A stretch of DNA of 23,397 nucleotides, taken from the IMG/VR virus record IMGVR_UViG_3300044946_000019, positions 1 through 23,397 of that record. One strand, written 5' to 3'. Under the pieces are notes generated by a model that saw nothing but the letters and a program-made list of their open reading frames with translations, had not been told where the DNA came from and ran no database searches. A program made the position numbers and the translations under genes. This DNA is from a virus. Each line of letters opens with the position of its first letter. Positions within the stretch are counted from its first letter, which is position 1. Below are positions 3,692-18,869 of the stretch, in pieces.

Positions 3692-3957
3692 ACTTTACGC
3701 ACGAAGCGAATCCGGTTCGCGTCTACGCGCGGCAGATCGTAAAAAAGATCCCGGTATTCGGAAAGGATCTTCCGCCCACGCAACATGGCTGGCATTTCGA
3801 ATTTGTGGAAGCTGACACAGACAAGTGGTGTTCGTTCACGGACCCGATGCTCGCACGCTACGTGCCGGAAGTTGGCGACTATCTGGTGACGCAGGAAGAC
3901 GGTTACGAGTACTTCAATCCGAAAGACGTATTCGAACGGAAGTATCACTCCATCTGA
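3688..3957 (+). CDS. Hypothetical protein, PGDY-like fold
   Basis: An 89-residue protein coupled by ATGA to the gene before it and sharing one base (TGATG) with the portal start. Unlike the preceding four small products it has a globular-looking sequence: aromatic-rich, with YVPEVGDYLVTQEDGYEYFNPKDVFERKY near the end broken here as GDYLVTQ and YFNPKDVFERKY. This resembles small phage proteins in which a Pro-x-x-Gly-Asp-Tyr-Leu-Val motif is followed by a Lys-Asp-x-Phe segment. I cannot assign a function. Confidence 0.65.
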   Translation: MNFTHEANPVRVYARQIVKKIPVFGKDLPPTQHGWHFEFVEADTDKWCSFTDPMLARYVPEVGDYLVTQEDGYEYFNPKDVFERKYHSI

Positions 3958-6140
3958 TGGCCAAAAAGAAAGAAGAGAAGAAAAAGGATGAGCCCGTAAT
4001 CGAGACAGTCGATTCACGGGCTATCGACGCTGAGCGCACCGGCGAAGAAATCGAAAACTGGGCTGAAGACATGGGCTCTGATGCCTATATCGACGCGGCC
4101 AAGCTCTACCCGAAGATCCAGAAGTGCTACGAAAACAAGCAGCAACAGTCCGATCGCGTCGAAGAGTATTGGAATATTTTTAACGCAATACCCGACGAGA
4201 ACCAGCAATACACCGGCAACAGTCAGTGCTACATCCCGGCGGTAAGGGATGCCATCACTGCGCGGTGTAAGCGCACCCTGGCTACGCTTTTCCCGGCGAA
4301 TTATAAGCACGTCGATGCGGTCGGCCCGAGCAACACGACCCCGTTTCCGACATTGGCCTTGCTAGAGCACTACATTCGCAAGACGAACCTGAAGGACATC
4401 GTTCGCGCGGATCTGCTCTCCGGCGACGTGACCGGCCAGTGGGCGCTGTACGTGGACTGGATGCGCACGACGCGGCGTATCACGGAACTGGTCAAGAAAC
4501 CGCCGATCCTTGAAAGCGATGATGGGATCGAAGCGGAAGACGTGACCGTTGAGGAAGAGTGGGACGTCGAGGAAAAGGAAATCGTAGACGAGATGCCGGA
4601 TATCTCGCCGATGGCGGTTGACGACCTGGCTGTCTACCCCCCAACCGTGAACGACATTGAGCGAGCGACTGCCACGGCAGTACGCCTGCGCCTGTCGAAA
4701 GAATCCGTCCAGCAGTTCATTGACGAAGGCGTCTTCGTCGGTTGGAATGCGAAAGAAATCATGGACAACCTGAACGAGCCGGATGGCGGTCGTCAGAAGC
4801 GTGTCCCTAACAAGCGCCGCACGGCGGACGCCGGCGTGCGCACCGAAGGCACGTACAAGTACGCGCTGATTTATGAGGCTCACACGAACCTCGAACTGGA
4901 AGAAGGCAAAGGGAAAGAGCCCTGCTTCGTCTACTACGCCGGGCCGGAAGTCATCCTGGGCATCATCCGCAATCCGTTCTGGTCGAAGAAACGTCCGATC
5001 ATCACGGCTCCAGTTGAGCGCATCCAGGGGACGATCTACGGCATCTCGCGCGTCGAGCCAGTCAAATATCTGCAGTGGAACTTGAACGACATGTGGAATA
5101 TGGGCCAGGACAGCGCGCAGTACGCGCTGCTGCCTATCGTCATGACGGACCCGCTCGCGAACCCAAATTACCAGTCCATGGTGATGGGTCTCGCCGCCGT
5201 GTGGCTGACAAATCCGCAGAGTACCCAGTTTGCTTCTTTCCCGGCGATCTATAAGGACGCACTGACTATCTGCGGCGCGCTGGAGCAGCGCATTAACCAG
5301 TCCATGGAAGTGAACGACGCCATGCTTGGCAAGATGCCGGCGGGCCGGAAGAATCAGGCGCAGGCCGCAGCGCAAGCCCAGTCGCAGGAGTCAAACATCA
5401 TCGACCATGCAAAGCGCTATGAAGAATGCATGCTGAACCAGCTTCTGGAGCGCATGTTCGAGTTCGACCGCCAGTTCCGCACGAAGGAATTGACTGTGGT
5501 CACGATGGGCGAAGTCGGCGCGCGCGCAAAGCAGGAGGAAATTCCGGTTCAGGCGTTCGGTGAACGCTACTTCTTCCGCTGGTGCGGCACGGCCTACCAG
5601 ACCGGCATGCAGCGCATGCAGCAGATGATTGCATGGATGAACGTGTTGCGCGGCATTCCTCCCCAGCAGCTCGACGGCCGGCGGCTTAACGTTGGCCCGA
5701 TCCTTGAGATGGGAACAGAACAGATCTTCGGCCCGGAAGTCGGGCCGCGTATCCTGATCGATGAGCGTAACCTGTTCCACGTCGAGCCGTCAGACGAAAA
5801 CCTGATGATGCACAACGGTTTGCCGGCGGAAGTCCACCCAGCGGACGACGATCAGCGGCACATCGCGGAGCATATGCGCGGCGCGACACTGACCGGCGAT
5901 CCGGCGGGCCTGTTCCGCGCACACATCCAGCAGCACCAGCAGGCGATGAACGCGAAGATGCAAAAGGCGCTCGGGCCGCCGCAAGGACAACCGGGGCAGC
6001 AGGGCATACCCGGCGGTGCGGGGCCCGGAGTGGCCGGAACACCGCGCCCCGGCGCGCAACCCGGTCAGCCACGCCCGCAAGGGCCGGCAGGCATGATCCA
6101 TCCTGACACCGTAGCCGACCCGGCAATGGGGCCGCGATGA
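3957..6140 (+). CDS. Portal protein
   Basis: A 727-residue protein expected to form the dodecameric ring at one capsid vertex, through which DNA enters and leaves and on which the terminase docks. The identification rests on size, position after the terminase, and segments typical of podoviral portals: an early QCYIPAVRDAITARCKRTLATLFP region, GDVTGQWALYVDW, VEPVKYLQWNLNDMWNMGQD and a helical MLNQLLERMFEFDRQFR stretch. The N-terminus is Lys/Glu-rich, an acidic loop lies at about residues 180-215, and the last 55 or so residues are Gly/Pro/Gln-rich and likely disordered. The ATG at 3957 overlaps the previous stop (TGATG). The frame stays open upstream to 3825, but that part is antiphase with the preceding gene and lacks portal-like sequence. 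Confidence 0.85.
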   Translation: MAKKKEEKKKDEPVIETVDSRAIDAERTGEEIENWAEDMGSDAYIDAAKLYPKIQKCYENKQQQSDRVEEYWNIFNAIPDENQQYTGNSQCYIPAVRDAITARCKRTLATLFPANYKHVDAVGPSNTTPFPTLALLEHYIRKTNLKDIVRADLLSGDVTGQWALYVDWMRTTRRITELVKKPPILESDDGIEAEDVTVEEEWDVEEKEIVDEMPDISPMAVDDLAVYPPTVNDIERATATAVRLRLSKESVQQFIDEGVFVGWNAKEIMDNLNEPDGGRQKRVPNKRRTADAGVRTEGTYKYALIYEAHTNLELEEGKGKEPCFVYYAGPEVILGIIRNPFWSKKRPIITAPVERIQGTIYGISRVEPVKYLQWNLNDMWNMGQDSAQYALLPIVMTDPLANPNYQSMVMGLAAVWLTNPQSTQFASFPAIYKDALTICGALEQRINQSMEVNDAMLGKMPAGRKNQAQAAAQAQSQESNIIDHAKRYEECMLNQLLERMFEFDRQFRTKELTVVTMGEVGARAKQEEIPVQAFGERYFFRWCGTAYQTGMQRMQQMIAWMNVLRGIPPQQLDGRRLNVGPILEMGTEQIFGPEVGPRILIDERNLFHVEPSDENLMMHNGLPAEVHPADDDQRHIAEHMRGATLTGDPAGLFRAHIQQHQQAMNAKMQKALGPPQGQPGQQGIPGGAGPGVAGTPRPGAQPGQPRPQGPAGMIHPDTVADPAMGPR

Positions 6141-6466
6141 TCGCACGCTCGACACTGTGGGGTACGGTCCAGATCGGTGAAGCTTTCCATCTGCTTTCCG
6201 AAATGCAGCAGTGCGCGGTGATCGCGCACGAGCGCGGGCACATCTACCACTACCACGCGTGGAAACGCCTGTGGTGGCTCGTGAGCTTCCAGTGGAAAGG
6301 GTTTTTCGAGCGCTGCGAGGCGCAGGAACTGGAAGCGGATCGGTACGCCGCGCAATGCGGGCATAAGGAAGGGCTCATTTCGTTCCTGACCCGCTGGTCG
6401 CAACCTGTAAAATCAGACGGCTATCCGACTGCGGAACAACGCCTGGAGAATCTGAGCCATGTCTGA
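6137..6466 (+). CDS. Minimal M48-like zinc metallopeptidase
   Basis: A 109-residue protein with the HExxH zinc motif (AHERGH, H31, E32 and H35) and a downstream ELEADRYAA segment (E66, D68) matching the third zinc ligand and following Asp of M48-type peptidases. The later PTAEQRLENL resembles the M48 C-terminal Pro-x-x-x-x-Arg-Ile-x-x-Leu stretch. A tryptophan-rich stretch WKRLWWLVSFQW (42-53) lies between the ligands, where membrane-bound relatives carry a hydrophobic hairpin, so membrane or lipid contact is possible. The start overlaps the portal stop by ATGA, and the end overlaps the fibre start by eight bases. The position in the head cluster makes a role in virion protein processing possible but unproven. 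An alternative is a non-peptidase structural use of the fold. Confidence 0.7.
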   Translation: MIARSTLWGTVQIGEAFHLLSEMQQCAVIAHERGHIYHYHAWKRLWWLVSFQWKGFFERCEAQELEADRYAAQCGHKEGLISFLTRWSQPVKSDGYPTAEQRLENLSHV

Positions 6467-8214: not shown

Positions 8215-8724
8215 GTGCGTAAAAACCGTCTCGCCGTGATGATCGGCATGTTGTTCCCGGCGATCCAGGGCCAGACGCCTGTGATCGCAGATAACGGCTC
8301 GATGCCGGATCAGATCAGTCTGATCAACGCGCTGATTTCAGTCAACCCGTGGCCGGCGACTGCGTACAACGTGGCCACCAACACCACGGCATTCACCGCG
8401 ACCCAACAGCAGATCTTCGCAGCAGAACAGACCTACCTGCTGATCAACTCGCTTAGCGGCGGCGCTGCCGTCACGCTTCCGACTGTTGCCACGATGCTCA
8501 CCACGATGACGCCGCAACAGGCTGTGGTCGGCTCTACCGTCGTGCTTCGCGTCCTGAACACCTCGGGCCAAACTGCGACGATCACGACCAACACCGGCTG
8601 GACACTCACCGGCCACGTGATCATTCTTACCGCCACGTACGTGGACTATGTTCTCCAGATCACCGCAGTTGGCACGACGCCTACCGCGACGTTGCAATCG
8701 GTCGGCGCAGGCGACGCTCCTTAA
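8215..8724 (+). CDS. Decoration/head-fibre-like protein with LFP tag
   Basis: A 169-residue protein beginning at GTG 8215, with AGGAG six bases upstream. After an N-terminal tag ending in LFPAI (residues 13-17) and a linker, the rest looks like an all-beta domain: TYLLINSLSGGAAVTLPT, then VLRVLNTSGQTATITTNTGW, TLTGHVIIL and VDYVLQITAVG. This series resembles beta domains found in phage head-fibre and decoration proteins. Together with its place just before scaffold and capsid genes, that suggests an external capsid component. The tag is shared with the next two proteins. An alternative is an unrelated minor head protein. Confidence 0.55.
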   Translation: MRKNRLAVMIGMLFPAIQGQTPVIADNGSMPDQISLINALISVNPWPATAYNVATNTTAFTATQQQIFAAEQTYLLINSLSGGAAVTLPTVATMLTTMTPQQAVVGSTVVLRVLNTSGQTATITTNTGWTLTGHVIILTATYVDYVLQITAVGTTPTATLQSVGAGDAP

Positions 8725-8733
8725 GGAATGACA

Positions 8734-9447
8734 ATGAACAAGCTGCTTAAAAAGCTGCTAGGCCTTCTTTTCCCGGGGATTGAAGGGGAACCTGATGAAC
8801 CTGATCTTCCTGATCCTGATGCACCTGATCCCGGCGACGCTGATCTTGATGATCTGCCTGACGATGATCTGCCTGACGATCCTCCTGCACGGACCGCATC
8901 GCGCCGTGATGATTCTGCTGAGCGTCTGGCTCGGCTGGAGGCTGAAGTCGAACGCCGGGGCCGTCTTGCGGCAGAACAGGCCGCTCGCCAGCCTGCTCCC
9001 GTAGACGCAGACTATCAGCGCGAAGAGGAACGCCTCCGGAATCCGGAAACGTCGGAGATGGAACGCTGGCAGATCCAGGCGAACCGCACGCTGCGCGATA
9101 CGCAGCGTCAGGCGCAACAGGCGATGTTCCAGGCGCAGGATATGTCCGACCGCACGCGGTTCGAGTCGAAAGTTTCGACCGATCCGCGCCGCGCGAAGTA
9201 CACGGAGCGCGTGGAAGAGGAAGTCCAGAAAGCGCGCTCACGCGGCCAGCAAGCCTCACGCGAGGATGTGTACTACTGGATGCTCGGCAAGGATATCGCG
9301 GATGGCAAGCTCAAGCCCAAAGCGAAAGTCCCACCCGCTGTTCCGCGCGGCAAGTCGCCGGGCGTGCGCAGCGACGTGCAGGGCCGGGGCCGTCCTTCGA
9401 GCGACCACGACAAGCGTCGCTCACGTCTGGAAAACCAGAATATTTAA
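8734..9447 (+). CDS. Scaffold-like protein with LFPGI tag
   Basis: A 237-residue, highly charged protein placed immediately before the major capsid gene, where scaffold genes normally lie. It has the tag KLLGLLFPGI (about residues 7-16), an acidic Asp/Pro repeat (20-51), a coiled-coil-prone middle (LARLEAEVERRGRLAAEQAA, and later helices with many Arg, Gln and Glu) and a basic C-terminus (RRSRLENQNI), like the basic capsid-binding tail of known scaffolds. AAGGA at 8723-8727 touches the ATG at 8728, so the ATG at 8734, six bases away, is the likelier start. The role as scaffold is inferred from context and composition. Confidence 0.65.
   Translation: MNKLLKKLLGLLFPGIEGEPDEPDLPDPDAPDPGDADLDDLPDDDLPDDPPARTASRRDDSAERLARLEAEVERRGRLAAEQAARQPAPVDADYQREEERLRNPETSEMERWQIQANRTLRDTQRQAQQAMFQAQDMSDRTRFESKVSTDPRRAKYTERVEEEVQKARSRGQQASREDVYYWMLGKDIADGKLKPKAKVPPAVPRGKSPGVRSDVQGRGRPSSDHDKRRSRLENQNI
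8791..8886 (+). repeat. CCTGAT-type repeats encoding Asp/Pro
   Basis: Imperfect tandem hexamers and nonamers (CCTGAT, CTGATCTT, GATCTGCCTGAC) in the scaffold-like gene encode Pro-Asp, Asp-Leu-Pro and Asp-Asp runs. The region is prone to slippage and is likely to vary in length between related phages. Confidence 0.7.
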
Positions 9448-9462
9448 CCCGCAGAGGAAACC

Positions 9463-10884
9463 ATGAAACTGCACCATAAACTGGGCCTCATGTGGGCCTC
9501 GCTGTTCCCCGGCGTTACCAACCAGTCCACCAGTTTTACGGCGGACGTTGAAGCGTACATTCAGGAAGAAGTTGAGCCGCTCGCGCGCCGCCAACTGGTC
9601 GCGTACCAGTTCGGCAAGCCGCTGAAGCTCGACACGAATCGCGGCACGACCTATACGGCTTCGCGCTACCAGCGTCTGCCGCTGCCGTTCGCGCCGTTGC
9701 AGGAAGGCGTAGCGCCCCCGGGCGAAGCGATGGCGCTGCAACAGGTTTCGGCCACTGCCCAGCAATGGGGTGACCGCGTCATCATCACCGACGTGGCGAA
9801 CCTGACCATCAAGCACCCGCTGTTCCAGCAGGCGTGCGAACTGGTCGCGCTGCAACTCCCGGAAACGCTGGAGCGCAACACGTTCAACACGCTGCTGGCC
9901 GCGACGCAGGTGAACTACGCGAACGGCAAGTCGAGCCGCGCCAACCTGCTCGCAACCGACGTGATGACGTCGCACGAGAACAACCGCATCGTCGGTTCGT
10001 TCCTCACCTACGGCGTGCCGCGCTTCATGGGCGACGAACGCGAAGACATGATGATCGAAGCGGGCGCTTACCGCGATCCGTCGAAGTCGCCGGCTGTCAT
10101 GCAGCACTACATCGGCCTGATTCACCCGCTGTCGGCGCAGGACATGCGCGAAAACACGACCGTGGCGAACGCCTGGTCGTACAGCGACGTGAACCGCCTG
10201 TACAACAACGAACTGGGTCCGTTTGGCGGCACGCGCTTCGTTGAGTCCAACATGATGCCGTACTGGACGGGCGCAGCGCAGATCAACGGTACGGCCTCGA
10301 CCTCAGGCGGCACGCTCGCGACGAACGCCGGCTACCAGATCATCGTGACGGCGGCACCGGCTCAGACTTCGGTCGAACAGGTGATCTACCAGGTGTCGAA
10401 CGCGATCAGCGTGACCGGACCGACGGGTTCCATCTCGGTCGTTCTGCCGCAGCTGGCCGGCTACATCTTCAACGTGTACATCGGCACGTCGGCCACGCCG
10501 TCGAACCTCGCCACGGCTATCGGCCTTGGCGTTCCGACGACTGGTCCGCTCGCGGGCATGGCAACGCAACTCACACCGAACCAGACGGTTACCCTGACGG
10601 GTATCGGCGTGGCGCAAACGCCGCCGGCAGCACCGGCAACGGGCGTGTCCGTGTTCCCGACGATCTACATCGGCAACCACTCGTACGGCCAGGTGCTTCT
10701 GGAGAACCCGGAGTTCCACTACCTGACGGGCGCTGACAAGTCGGACCCGCTGAATCAGACCCGCGTGGTGAGCTGGAAAGTGTTCTACGGCTCGATCATT
10801 CTCAACCAGGCATTTTTGGCCCGCGTTGAGGCTGGTTCTGCATTTACGCCGGGGTATACTGGCGGCACTGTGACAACCCCGTAA
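9463..10884 (+). CDS. Major capsid protein, N4-gp56-like
   Basis: A 473-residue shell protein of the HK97 fold, related to the N4 gp56 capsid family. Recognisable parts are the N-terminal YIQEEVEPLARRQLVAYQFG helix region, TASRYQRLPLP, the VIITDVANLTIKHPL segment, NELGPFGGTRFVES (249-262) and the C-terminal VFPTIYIGNHSYGQV with SWKVFYGSIILNQAFLARVE. Between about residues 271 and 396 lies an inserted beta-rich, Ig-like segment containing GYIFNVYIGTS, which may project from the capsid surface. Residues 1-17 carry the LFPGV-ending tag shared with the two preceding proteins. GAGGAA precedes the ATG. The codon choice is strongly biased toward C/G-ending codons, consistent with high expression. 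The gene follows the scaffold by 15 bases. Confidence 0.88.
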   Translation: MKLHHKLGLMWASLFPGVTNQSTSFTADVEAYIQEEVEPLARRQLVAYQFGKPLKLDTNRGTTYTASRYQRLPLPFAPLQEGVAPPGEAMALQQVSATAQQWGDRVIITDVANLTIKHPLFQQACELVALQLPETLERNTFNTLLAATQVNYANGKSSRANLLATDVMTSHENNRIVGSFLTYGVPRFMGDEREDMMIEAGAYRDPSKSPAVMQHYIGLIHPLSAQDMRENTTVANAWSYSDVNRLYNNELGPFGGTRFVESNMMPYWTGAAQINGTASTSGGTLATNAGYQIIVTAAPAQTSVEQVIYQVSNAISVTGPTGSISVVLPQLAGYIFNVYIGTSATPSNLATAIGLGVPTTGPLAGMATQLTPNQTVTLTGIGVAQTPPAAPATGVSVFPTIYIGNHSYGQVLLENPEFHYLTGADKSDPLNQTRVVSWKVFYGSIILNQAFLARVEAGSAFTPGYTGGTVTTP

Positions 10885-12479: not shown

Positions 12480-12944
12480 TCACTCAACGTTTTTCCAGTT
12501 CTTGCGATGCACGATATCCCAAATCCCTTGGAAAGTCATACCAAAGTGCTCCGCAATACTGCGTTGGGTAGCGCCTTTCGCGTGCATTTTTCGGATGTGG
12601 CGAACATCGTCCTCCGTCAGCTTTGCCTTCCACTGGCCCTCGCCTTTTGGGCAGCGGTGCCGCTTTTTCTCGACCTTATCTGTCATGTTGGCCTGCGCAT
12701 CGCCAAGGAACAGATGGAAAGGATTGCCGCAAAGGGTTACGTCACAGCGGTGGCAGACGTAGGCCCCCTCGGGAATCGGACCTTTGAAAAGTCGCCAAGC
12801 TGCACGATGGCTTCCGTCATAATCCTTAGGCCCCATGTAGAACTTTCCGTATCGACCGTCCGGATAGGTGGAAGCTGTCCAGATCCAGCATCCCGATTCA
12901 GGGATCATCTCGATATTTTTCATGAAGCGCTGCAAAGCATCCAT
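12480..12944 (-). CDS. HNH homing endonuclease with HTH tail
   Basis: A 154-residue endonuclease on the minus strand, inserted between two + strand head genes. The N-terminal half is an HNH_3-type domain: SHRAAWRLF (H47), then VCHRCDVTLCGNPFHLFLGD (C64, H65, C67, C72, N74, H77) with a following N86. Residues 106-154 (KAKLTEDDVRHIRKMHAKG to RKNWKNVE) form a helix-turn-helix module very similar to the tail of the endonuclease at 330-863. The ATG is preceded on its strand by AGGAGAAACGA, a good ribosome-binding site. It converges with the adaptor gene without a gap and splits the late operon without breaking any gene. Opposite-strand placement marks it as a selfish insertion. Confidence 0.88.
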   Translation of the reverse strand: MDALQRFMKNIEMIPESGCWIWTASTYPDGRYGKFYMGPKDYDGSHRAAWRLFKGPIPEGAYVCHRCDVTLCGNPFHLFLGDAQANMTDKVEKKRHRCPKGEGQWKAKLTEDDVRHIRKMHAKGATQRSIAEHFGMTFQGIWDIVHRKNWKNVE

Positions 12945-14625: not shown

Positions 14626-15414
14626 ATGGCTATTGTCGGAACCCTCCCGAATATCCTCACCAACGGCACCGTGGCGGATGCGTCACAGGTCATGGCGGAT
14701 TTCAACTTTATCGTCAACCAGATAAACGCAAATGCGGTTCCGCTCGGCGTACCGCAACCCGGCGCGCTGCTTAACGTGCAGGCGTTCGGCACTTCCGGAA
14801 CCTATACGCCGACCACGGGGATGACGAAGGCGATCGGCTTCGCGGCGGGCGGCGGCGGTGCGGGCGGCGGTGCGAGCGGTGCGACGGGAGGTAACGTGAG
14901 CCTTGGCGCACCGGGCGGCGCAGGCACGTGGGCGCAGTTTCTGGTGACCGCCTTGCAGGTCGGCGCTTCGCAGACCGTCACAATCGGTGCAGGCGGGCCG
15001 GGCGCGGCGGGCGGCAACGGCTTCGCGGGTTCGGCCACGTCACTTGGTGCGCTCATCTCCTGCCCCGGGGGCCTCGGCGGCACCGTACTTAGTAACGTGG
15101 CTGCTCCGGTCCTGATCGGCAACGGTAACGTACTGGGCGGCGGCTTGCCGACAGGCAGCGCAAACATCATCAGTTACACTCTCGGCATCTGCCAGTTTCT
15201 TGCCCTCGCATACTCGGCGTCCTTTGCGCAGGGCGGAGCAGGCGCAACATCGGCGTATGGCCCCGGCGCACCGCCGGTTCCGATCAACACGGGCGGAAAC
15301 AACGCTTCGAACTACGCGGCGGGCGGCGGCGGGACAGTAGTCAACGCAGGTGGTGGTACTTCAACAGGGGGATCAGGGCACGCGGGTATTCTGGTCCTTT
15401 TCGAATTTGCGTGA
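14626..15414 (+). CDS. Glycine-rich tail fibre protein
   Basis: A 262-residue fibre-like protein. Residues 1-40 (VGTLPNILTNGTVADASQVM, then DFNFIVNQINANA) match the short helical start common in phage fibres and baseplate appendages. A beta segment QAFGTSGTYTPTTGMTKAIGF follows in parts, leading to a glycine-rich domain (AAGGGGAGGGASGATGG, GAGGPGAAGGNGFAGSA) and the closing AGILVLFEF strand. This is the glycine-rich domain arrangement of phage fibre tips that carry polyglycine II helices, implicated in receptor binding. GGAG lies ahead of the ATG, two bases after the previous stop. It is probably a second receptor-binding protein beside the fibre at 6459. Confidence 0.7.
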   Translation: MAIVGTLPNILTNGTVADASQVMADFNFIVNQINANAVPLGVPQPGALLNVQAFGTSGTYTPTTGMTKAIGFAAGGGGAGGGASGATGGNVSLGAPGGAGTWAQFLVTALQVGASQTVTIGAGGPGAAGGNGFAGSATSLGALISCPGGLGGTVLSNVAAPVLIGNGNVLGGGLPTGSANIISYTLGICQFLALAYSASFAQGGAGATSAYGPGAPPVPINTGGNNASNYAAGGGGTVVNAGGGTSTGGSGHAGILVLFEFA

Positions 15415-17849: not shown

Positions 17850-18869
17850 ATGCCGTTTGCCGTTGCGGGGCCTGTTTTAGGCGCAGTTGCAGGCGCTGCC
17901 GCGTCGGCAGCGTTCGCCCCCGGCACGTCCGGCGGATCGGGCGGAGGAGGAGGTGGTCCGAACTACTATATCCCTACCGGTTTGCAGACCGCAGATCAGC
18001 AATGGCAGGGCCTGCAAGGCAACAACTACAATACGTATACGGGGGCCGGGCTCCAGCAGTATGGCGAACAGTCGCTCGACGCCCAGCTCGCGAACGTAAC
18101 GGGCTACGCCCCCCAGTTGCAACAGGGCGCGAACGCGGCGGGTGCGCAGTATGGCGCGCTCGGTCAGCAGCTTGGCGCGGCTTCCGGTCAGGAGTTTGGC
18201 GCAGGGAACCAGCTTTACCAGTCGGCTTTCGATCCGCAGAACGCGCTTTACAATCGCTCGGTCCAGCAATTGCAGGACCAGACCGGAGCCACGAACAGCA
18301 TGTACGGGCTCGGGTCCAGCGCTGCGGGAGCGGGCGTCGCGAATCAGGCGCTTGGCAACTTCAATATCGACTGGCAGAACCAGCAACTCCAGCGTCAGCT
18401 ACAAGGCGTTCAAGGGATGGGCCAGGCCTACGGCCAGGGGCAATCGCTGGGCGCAGCCGGAGCCGGATACACGCAACAGGGCTCGCAACTCCCGTACCAG
18501 ACCGCGCAGCAGATTGCGGGCGCTCCAGGCCAGCTTGGCGGGCAGTACGGAAGTTACCTGCAAAGCAACGTCTATGGCCCGGCGCAAGGGATTCAGGGGC
18601 AGGCGATTCCGTATATGAACTACGGTCAGGGGGCGCAGTCCGTGCCTTACCAGAATGCTACGCAAGGCGCAGGCGCAGCGGGCGCACTGGTGTCGCAAGG
18701 GATCAACGCGATCGGCAACAACCCGCAAGTGCAGCAGGGATTGGGTAATGCGTTCCAGAATTTCATGAACCCGGCTAGCGGATCGTTTAGCGGGGGCGAC
18801 TTCAGCGGAGCGTTCAACTCCAGCCCGTATTACAGTGGCGGCGGCAATTCATACGGCTTCACGATGTAG
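17850..18869 (+). CDS. Gln/Gly-rich putative ejection protein
   Basis: A 339-residue protein with a good AAGGAG site. An N-terminal hydrophobic Ala/Gly stretch (AVAGPVLGAVAGAAASAAFA, residues 4-23) could insert in a membrane, followed by a polyglycine linker. The body is rich in Gln, Gly, Ala, Asn and Tyr with loosely repeated units (LQQGANAAGAQYGALGQQLG, YGQGQSLGAAGAGYTQQG). This composition is usual for podoviral internal virion proteins injected with the DNA, and such proteins are often encoded in sets of three as here. The function is inferred from composition and place. Confidence 0.55.
   Translation: MPFAVAGPVLGAVAGAAASAAFAPGTSGGSGGGGGGPNYYIPTGLQTADQQWQGLQGNNYNTYTGAGLQQYGEQSLDAQLANVTGYAPQLQQGANAAGAQYGALGQQLGAASGQEFGAGNQLYQSAFDPQNALYNRSVQQLQDQTGATNSMYGLGSSAAGAGVANQALGNFNIDWQNQQLQRQLQGVQGMGQAYGQGQSLGAAGAGYTQQGSQLPYQTAQQIAGAPGQLGGQYGSYLQSNVYGPAQGIQGQAIPYMNYGQGAQSVPYQNATQGAGAAGALVSQGINAIGNNPQVQQGLGNAFQNFMNPASGSFSGGDFSGAFNSSPYYSGGGNSYGFTM

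Follow-up and report, generated by a model that had tools for sequence, protein, structure and literature searches.

An N-terminal tag common to virion proteins of betaproteobacterial phages: a predicted leader and a candidate M48-like peptidase for its removal

The window, i.e. the whole stretch of 23,397 nucleotides analysed here, is a 23.4-kb IMG/VR phage contig, in which genes for the terminase (1005), two small ORFs, the portal (3951), an M48-like peptidase (6137), a tail-fibre-type protein (6459), P1 (8215), P2 (8728/8734) and the major capsid protein (MCP, 9463) are followed by adaptor and tail genes, an endolysin gene (15829) and genes for ejection-type proteins. The portal protein (3951-6140, + strand; PHROG 1216 and 332) is encoded directly upstream of the gene for the peptidase, a 109-aa M48-like metallopeptidase (6137-6466, +) with the sequence HERGH...QELEAD...PxxxxR. 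P1 (8215-8724, +) is a beta-rich protein of 169 aa. The top PDB match of its AF2 model (pLDDT 86) in Foldseek is the capsid spike of Pseudomonas phage Pa223 (9ny6_C; E 2e-4, probability 1.0), which at a TM of 0.36 is not close, and judging from this model P1 probably serves as a spike or decoration of the capsid. P2 (8734-9447, +) yielded neither a Pfam nor a PHROG match and is regarded as scaffold-like because of its position directly upstream of the MCP gene and its acidic, charged composition. The MCP (9463-10884, +) matches the major head protein family PHROG 1357 with an E-value of 8e-40; PDB profile searches using MCP and P1 returned no match. The window also contains an HNH homing-endonuclease-like gene (297-863, +) with matches to NUMOD4 and HNH_3, and a gene on the opposite strand among the tail genes (12480-12944, -) resembles such genes by eye.

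P1, P2 and MCP, whose bodies are unrelated, have in common a basic and hydrophobic leader that ends in LFP(A/G)(I/V). With the start codons picked using Shine-Dalgarno scores, P1 starts at 8215 with a GTG codon (MRKNRLAVMIGMLFPAIQG), P2 at 8734 (MNKLLKKLLGLLFPGIEG), with an additional in-frame ATG at 8728, and MCP at 9463 (MKLHHKLGLMWASLFPGVTN); their N-terminal openings as translated are MRKNRLAVMIGMLFPAI, MNKLLKKLLGLLFPGI and MKLHHKLGLMWASLFPGV, respectively. The LFP triplet occupies residues 13-15, 12-14 and 14-16 of the translations, exactly as given in the first-pass annotation, which had pointed out the similarity. The predicted leaders, 15-17 residues long, are MRKNRLAVMIGMLFPA in P1 (8215-8262, +), MNKLLKKLLGLLFPG in P2 (8734-8778, +) and MKLHHKLGLMWASLFPG in MCP (9463-9513, +). 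The tag of P2 is conserved in the family, and in the alignment of the P1 family F14 and P15 are invariant. At the DNA level the 42-nt tag segments of the three genes exhibit pairwise identity of only 43-57%, and of 751 pairs of identical tag residues in the family 39% share their codon, compared to 54% expected from codon usage. Since codon agreement falls below expectation, the likeness of the tags is held at the protein level, which bears out the earlier claim of differing codons and no recent duplication; gene conversion of the gene starts was ruled out on the same grounds. A similar string in the portal protein, RTLATLFPANY, was also dismissed, as it lies about 100 residues into the portal body, away from the start.

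When the MCP was used to scan viral contigs, 387 relatives were identified, 80 of which were kept, and four loci were found in bacterial genomes, three of them in Paraburkholderia species and one in a beta-proteobacterial MAG. The pattern [LFIM]FP[GAS][IV] is present in P1, P2 and MCP of nearly all of the approximately 80 viral relatives (MCP 80-100% identical), and the exceptions (LIYPGV, LVYPGV, ALNPGV, SLFIGI) retain the shape of the motif. Scans seeded with ever more distant MCPs revealed relatives with MCPs about 69-77% identical, in which the motif has drifted and still matches. In distant relatives it can be generalised as [FYLS][LF]x[P/L][GAPRS][V/I/A]; a strict LFPG motif proved too narrow, because LG, LP, LA and PR occur in relatives. 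All distinct MCP starts examined (75/75) carry the tag. Homologues without the motif, named in the first-pass annotation as the observation that would speak against a common signal, were looked for, and for P1, P2 and MCP none was found. With a matrix trained leaving each genome out, a score of at least 8 was reached by 80% of the tagged N-termini; among the remaining ORF starts of these loci the figure was 4.6%, and the majority of these high scorers proved to be further tagged virion proteins. Over 42 divergent genomes the mean identity is 79% for the MCP body, 50% for the motif and 25% for the MCP leader, in which 9-20 residues precede the motif. As far as can be told from the sequences, this is the pattern of a segment with an important end, the remainder of which need only be broadly basic and hydrophobic and poor in acidic residues. 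In five of the loci (L034, L036, L042, L043 and L046) the MCP start is rearranged (MAYRQLPMYLFPGV...), with approximately 100 extra bases near the original start, and LFPGV is still present.

In the family as a whole the tag is not restricted to the three head proteins to which it had been assigned, an assignment that holds for the window itself. In ten nearly complete distant phages as many as about nine virion proteins per genome carry it, namely a 115-aa protein whose gene follows that of the peptidase, P1, P1b, P2, MCP, one or two homologues of the tail-fibre-type protein encoded at 14626-15414 (+; PHROG 863) and, in some of them, a homologue of the protein encoded at 17850-18869 (+), which by its position is of the internal or ejection type. 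In the recognisable replication-type genes of these ten phages no convincing tag was found, the weak matches being on other strands or in other frames. In the window both the 14626 protein (which starts with M followed by AIVGTLPN) and the 17850 protein are untagged, while their homologues in relatives (for the latter, in L166, G014, G018 and G019) are tagged, hence the tag has been gained and lost protein by protein. The presence of the tag on fibre-type proteins rules out a head-only targeting signal. Distant genomes generally have duplicated and diverged P1-type genes, encoding P1 of about 270 aa and P1b of about 165 aa, with a tag on each (in L160 at 8702 and 9246), and a single P1 gene, of 169 aa, was seen in the clade of the window.

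The tags of one genome resemble each other more than those of different genomes. In a large distant clade, referred to as L-type, LFPGV is replaced by FLTLGV, and the change is common to every tagged protein of a genome, as exemplified by L180 (YLSLGV, FLSLGL, FLTLGI, FLTLGV), L249 (YLKLGI, YFTLGV, YSTLGV) and L248 (HLLLSV, HLTLAV). A motif locator was seeded solely from the three motifs of the window and trained with the genome in question left out; its calls matched those made by hand in 115 of 120 cases. When motifs were shuffled within the P-type group and within the L-type group, the observed within-genome similarity exceeded that of the shuffles (z 8.6, 0/2000), whereas under the same shuffles windows at +6 and +12 downstream of the motif gave z of 0.8 and -0.7, and the upstream flank at -6 exhibited a weak excess (z 2.5). 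A partial Mantel test of the MCP tag against the P2 tag, given MCP body distance, yielded r of 0.38 (0/2000), with values of about zero for the flanks; the genomes in these permutation tests are kin, so that the counts overstate their independence. The genome L222 is nested in the L-type clade in the MCP-body tree (UFBoot 98, 91 and 89 along the path, with one inner node at only 54; the P2-body tree is too poorly resolved for placing it), and it has P in all six tagged proteins (FLYPAI, FVWPRV, YLFPQV, FLFPRV, YLFPAV in the fibre protein and FLSPRA in a small protein). It therefore appears that one lineage switched all its tags together, and although this switch is a single event, a single recognising partner is the best explanation of concerted change. 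We regard it as virtually certain that the tag is a real feature of these proteins, held at the protein level and changing in concert.

Untagged homologues allow prediction of where the leader would end. A conserved anchor of the fibre family lies 11 residues from motif position 6 in 15/16 tagged proteins, and in 36 of the 45 untagged ones it lies equally far from residue 2; every one of the 45 has A, P, S, T, G or V as residue 2. Before these residues the initiator methionine is normally removed by methionine aminopeptidase. The anchor distance is 7 in 14/16 tagged and 2/4 untagged P1b proteins, and 10 in all tagged (8/8) and untagged (2/2) members of the 115-aa family. The fibre and 115-aa families had been excluded from motif training, and the g17850 family was left outside the comparison, since its matched set contained one tagged member only. 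As motif position 6 is thus in register with residue 2 of untagged proteins in three unrelated families, cleavage is predicted between positions 5 and 6. By this register rule, taken over from the other families, the implied cuts (marked by arrows) in the window are LFPA↓I in P1 (between A16 and I17), LFPG↓I in P2 (between G15 and I16) and LFPG↓V in MCP (between G17 and V18). Based on these sequence comparisons, cleavage of the tag seems to us highly probable. Among the functions suggested in the first-pass annotation (capsid targeting, co-assembly or cleavage), cleavage is favoured by the register, by the position of the protease gene and by the variable leader preceding a conserved MCP body, while targeting purely to the interior of the capsid is disfavoured by the tagged tail-fibre-type proteins of relatives.

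The protein encoded at 6137-6466 matches Pfam Peptidase_M48 above the cut-off (29.2 vs 20.3 bits, E 1e-6) and exhibits the features of that family, namely the HExxH zinc motif, a downstream glutamate and AD, and the gluzincin fold. In 23 representatives, 36-71% identical to the window protein, the catalytic residues H31, E32, H35, E64 and D68 are invariant and PxxxxR is also kept; the zinc-site motif is retained in distant forms as well. The AF2 model (pLDDT 95) is a small compact fold, the twelve best Foldseek matches of which in the PDB are all M48 enzymes (ZMPSTE24, Ste24p, BepA), with the minigluzincin proabylysin ranking lower (probabilities near 1, E-values of 0.08-0.5). The gene was found in every family record long enough to contain it (9/12 and 13/17 in two surveys, all seven misses being fragments of 4-14 kb), and in loci that reach that far it follows the portal gene, in the portal-to-capsid interval that is the usual position of a prohead protease. 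No family match to a serine protease of the herpesvirus or T4 type was obtained among the window proteins searched, and the M48-like gene is the only protease-like gene recognised. Neither the tag nor the M48 gene is present in the distant members of PHROG 1357 that were checked, which include MW202637 and are about 27% identical or less; the M48 gene was not found in seven distant phage records with capsids in this identity range, a small set in a search run with no positive control. The link between the peptidase and the tag is one that we infer from position and co-occurrence, and on this basis the M48-like protein is rather likely to be the maturation protease that cuts the leaders of this family. 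No family member was found to have lost either the tag or the M48 gene and kept the other except L151 (7323-9082), in which the end of the portal gene, the M48 gene and a tail-fibre fusion are left, all head genes are gone and an integrase gene lies at the end. It is possibly a satellite or a decayed element; its use as a natural experiment on an M48 gene without head genes was dropped, as it is a deleted prophage.

Similar systems have been described in other phages. In the staphylococcal phage 80alpha, the capsid protein (gp47) and the scaffold protein (gp46) share an N-terminal leader, 13-14 residues of which are removed by the host cysteine protease Prp; the leader of the scaffold is essential for assembly and its cleavage is dispensable, and in other phages the Prp motif has been found also on further virion proteins, in some cases on a major tail protein (PMC5744158, PMC9405229). 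Like the Prp tag of 80alpha and of Firmicutes L27, the tag described here is an N-terminal leader of similar length on unrelated capsid and scaffold proteins, with a cut (here predicted) beside a hydrophobic motif. However, the Prp motif is NLQFF↓A, whereas here it is [FYLS][LF]x[P/L]x↓[VIA], the candidate protease is a phage-encoded metallopeptidase, many more virion proteins are tagged, and the hosts identified are Paraburkholderia and the source of one beta-proteobacterial MAG rather than staphylococci. The tagged proteins contain no NLQFF and do not match the Prp consensus MLxx(D/N)LQ(F/L)F↓A at their starts, the motif in the window and its relatives being LFPG(V/I) or FLTLGV-like. By this analogy, the predicted leader system works like the Prp tag and is not a member of it, as both the motif and the candidate enzyme differ, and the remark in the first-pass annotation that no such signal was known to have been described was too strong (PMC5744158, PMC9405229). 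The capsid targeting sequence and internal-protein propeptides of T4 resemble our tag in that short N-terminal propeptides with a short motif are present on several unrelated proteins and are cut off there by one phage protease; on the other hand, in T4 the motif is L/I-x-E, and the protease, gp21, is of the serine type and acts within the prohead, while here fibre-type proteins are tagged as well and the candidate is M48-like (PMC9026906). The latter shares its fold and the HExxH...E...AD and PxxxxR signature with Ste24/ZMPSTE24, BepA and proabylysin, but unlike them it has 109 aa with no extra domains and is encoded within a head-gene cluster. An earlier description of an M48 maturation protease in phages, or of this combination, was not found in the open PubMed Central literature.

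We propose that selected virion proteins would be made with an additional short N-terminal leader terminating in LFP(G/A)(I/V), and that one partner would recognise all tagged proteins of a phage at [FYLS][LF]x[P/L]x↓[V/I/A]. A cut between motif residues 5 and 6 would create the same mature N-terminus as that of Met-trimmed untagged homologues, the most likely cutter being the phage's own M48-like zinc peptidase. Before its removal, the basic and hydrophobic leader probably aids correct folding of the subunits or their ordered assembly, by analogy with 80alpha. This reading as a whole, a virion-wide leader removed by a phage M48-like peptidase, we consider likely. Cleavage at the same site could be carried out by a host protease, with the M48-like protein having another job: the 80alpha precedent relies on a host enzyme (PMC5744158), and synteny is the only tie between the M48 gene and the tag. 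However, from one phage lineage to another the motif has drifted and switched, changes that a phage enzyme evolving together with it could follow more readily than an invariable host enzyme, and the M48 gene is always present, with its catalytic residues intact and in the position of a maturation protease, all of which makes a host cutter unlikely. It is quite improbable that the tag is never cleaved and persists as a docking or co-assembly element for one common partner (the portal, the MCP shell or a chaperone), since the tagged fibre, internal, scaffold and capsid proteins have no obvious common assembly site and a one-residue register with Met-trimmed starts in three families is unexpected for a retained extension, even though concerted evolution requires no more than a shared partner, a retained N-terminal segment would also yield conservation and covariation, and the N-terminal sequence of the 80alpha scaffold is needed for assembly while its cleavage is not (PMC5744158).

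The leader might also be a helix resembling a signal anchor, which sends nascent virion proteins to the membrane and is later removed or not. Indeed, basic and hydrophobic residues characterise the leaders, acidic ones being rare (absent from 42 MCP leaders), the M48 relatives Ste24 and BepA are enzymes of membranes or the envelope, and T4 proheads leave the membrane after maturation (PMC9026906). Yet most leaders have only 9-20 residues and moderate hydrophobicity (mean Kyte-Doolittle 0.0-1.1), only those of P2 and P1b are clearly amphipathic (for P2, a moment of 0.58 vs 0.36 in shuffled sequences), and the compact phage M48 protein, as modelled, would leave no room for a membrane domain, so that we hold membrane targeting for very unlikely. 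Phage proteins often start with hydrophobic residues; nevertheless, the idea that the tags are coincidental hydrophobic N-termini or remnants of duplicated gene starts is hardly credible, being refuted by conservation across many genomes, by covariation confined to the motif with none in the downstream flanks, and by codons that agree less than expected.

Phage capsid maturation is known mainly from serine-type prohead proteases and from the host cysteine protease Prp. If removal of a virion-wide leader by a phage metallopeptidase is true, a further protease class would be added to maturation, the common start of capsid, scaffold and fibre proteins would be explained, and exact mature N-termini could be predicted for hundreds of uncharacterised phages, in which annotation based on ORFs only would count the leaders within the mature protein. 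The many substrates with natural variants of the motif, including tags that switch jointly, would then offer material on co-evolution of a protease with its substrates. We lean towards the broader view that one family of betaproteobacterial phages marks many of its virion proteins (capsid, scaffold, spike, fibre and internal) with a genome-specific leader removed by a dedicated minimal M48 enzyme, which would be the first metalloprotease maturation system of tailed phages, its enzyme and substrates co-evolving.

Two head-region copies, each with 93% MCP identity to the window, were seen in a 79-kb record (IMGVR_UViG_3300037852_000046; L029 and L032), which is either two adjacent prophages or a chimeric contig. 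In the gut phage MT836150.1 (L087) the scaffold (MKKELLKKLHTHMFDGEG) and capsid (MNRDYLKKLHTQMFDVEL) proteins share a start tag of their own, and the MCP of L082 starts with MEMNLQMFAEN; these starts resemble Prp-type tags that have drifted, and would parallel the concerted tags described here.
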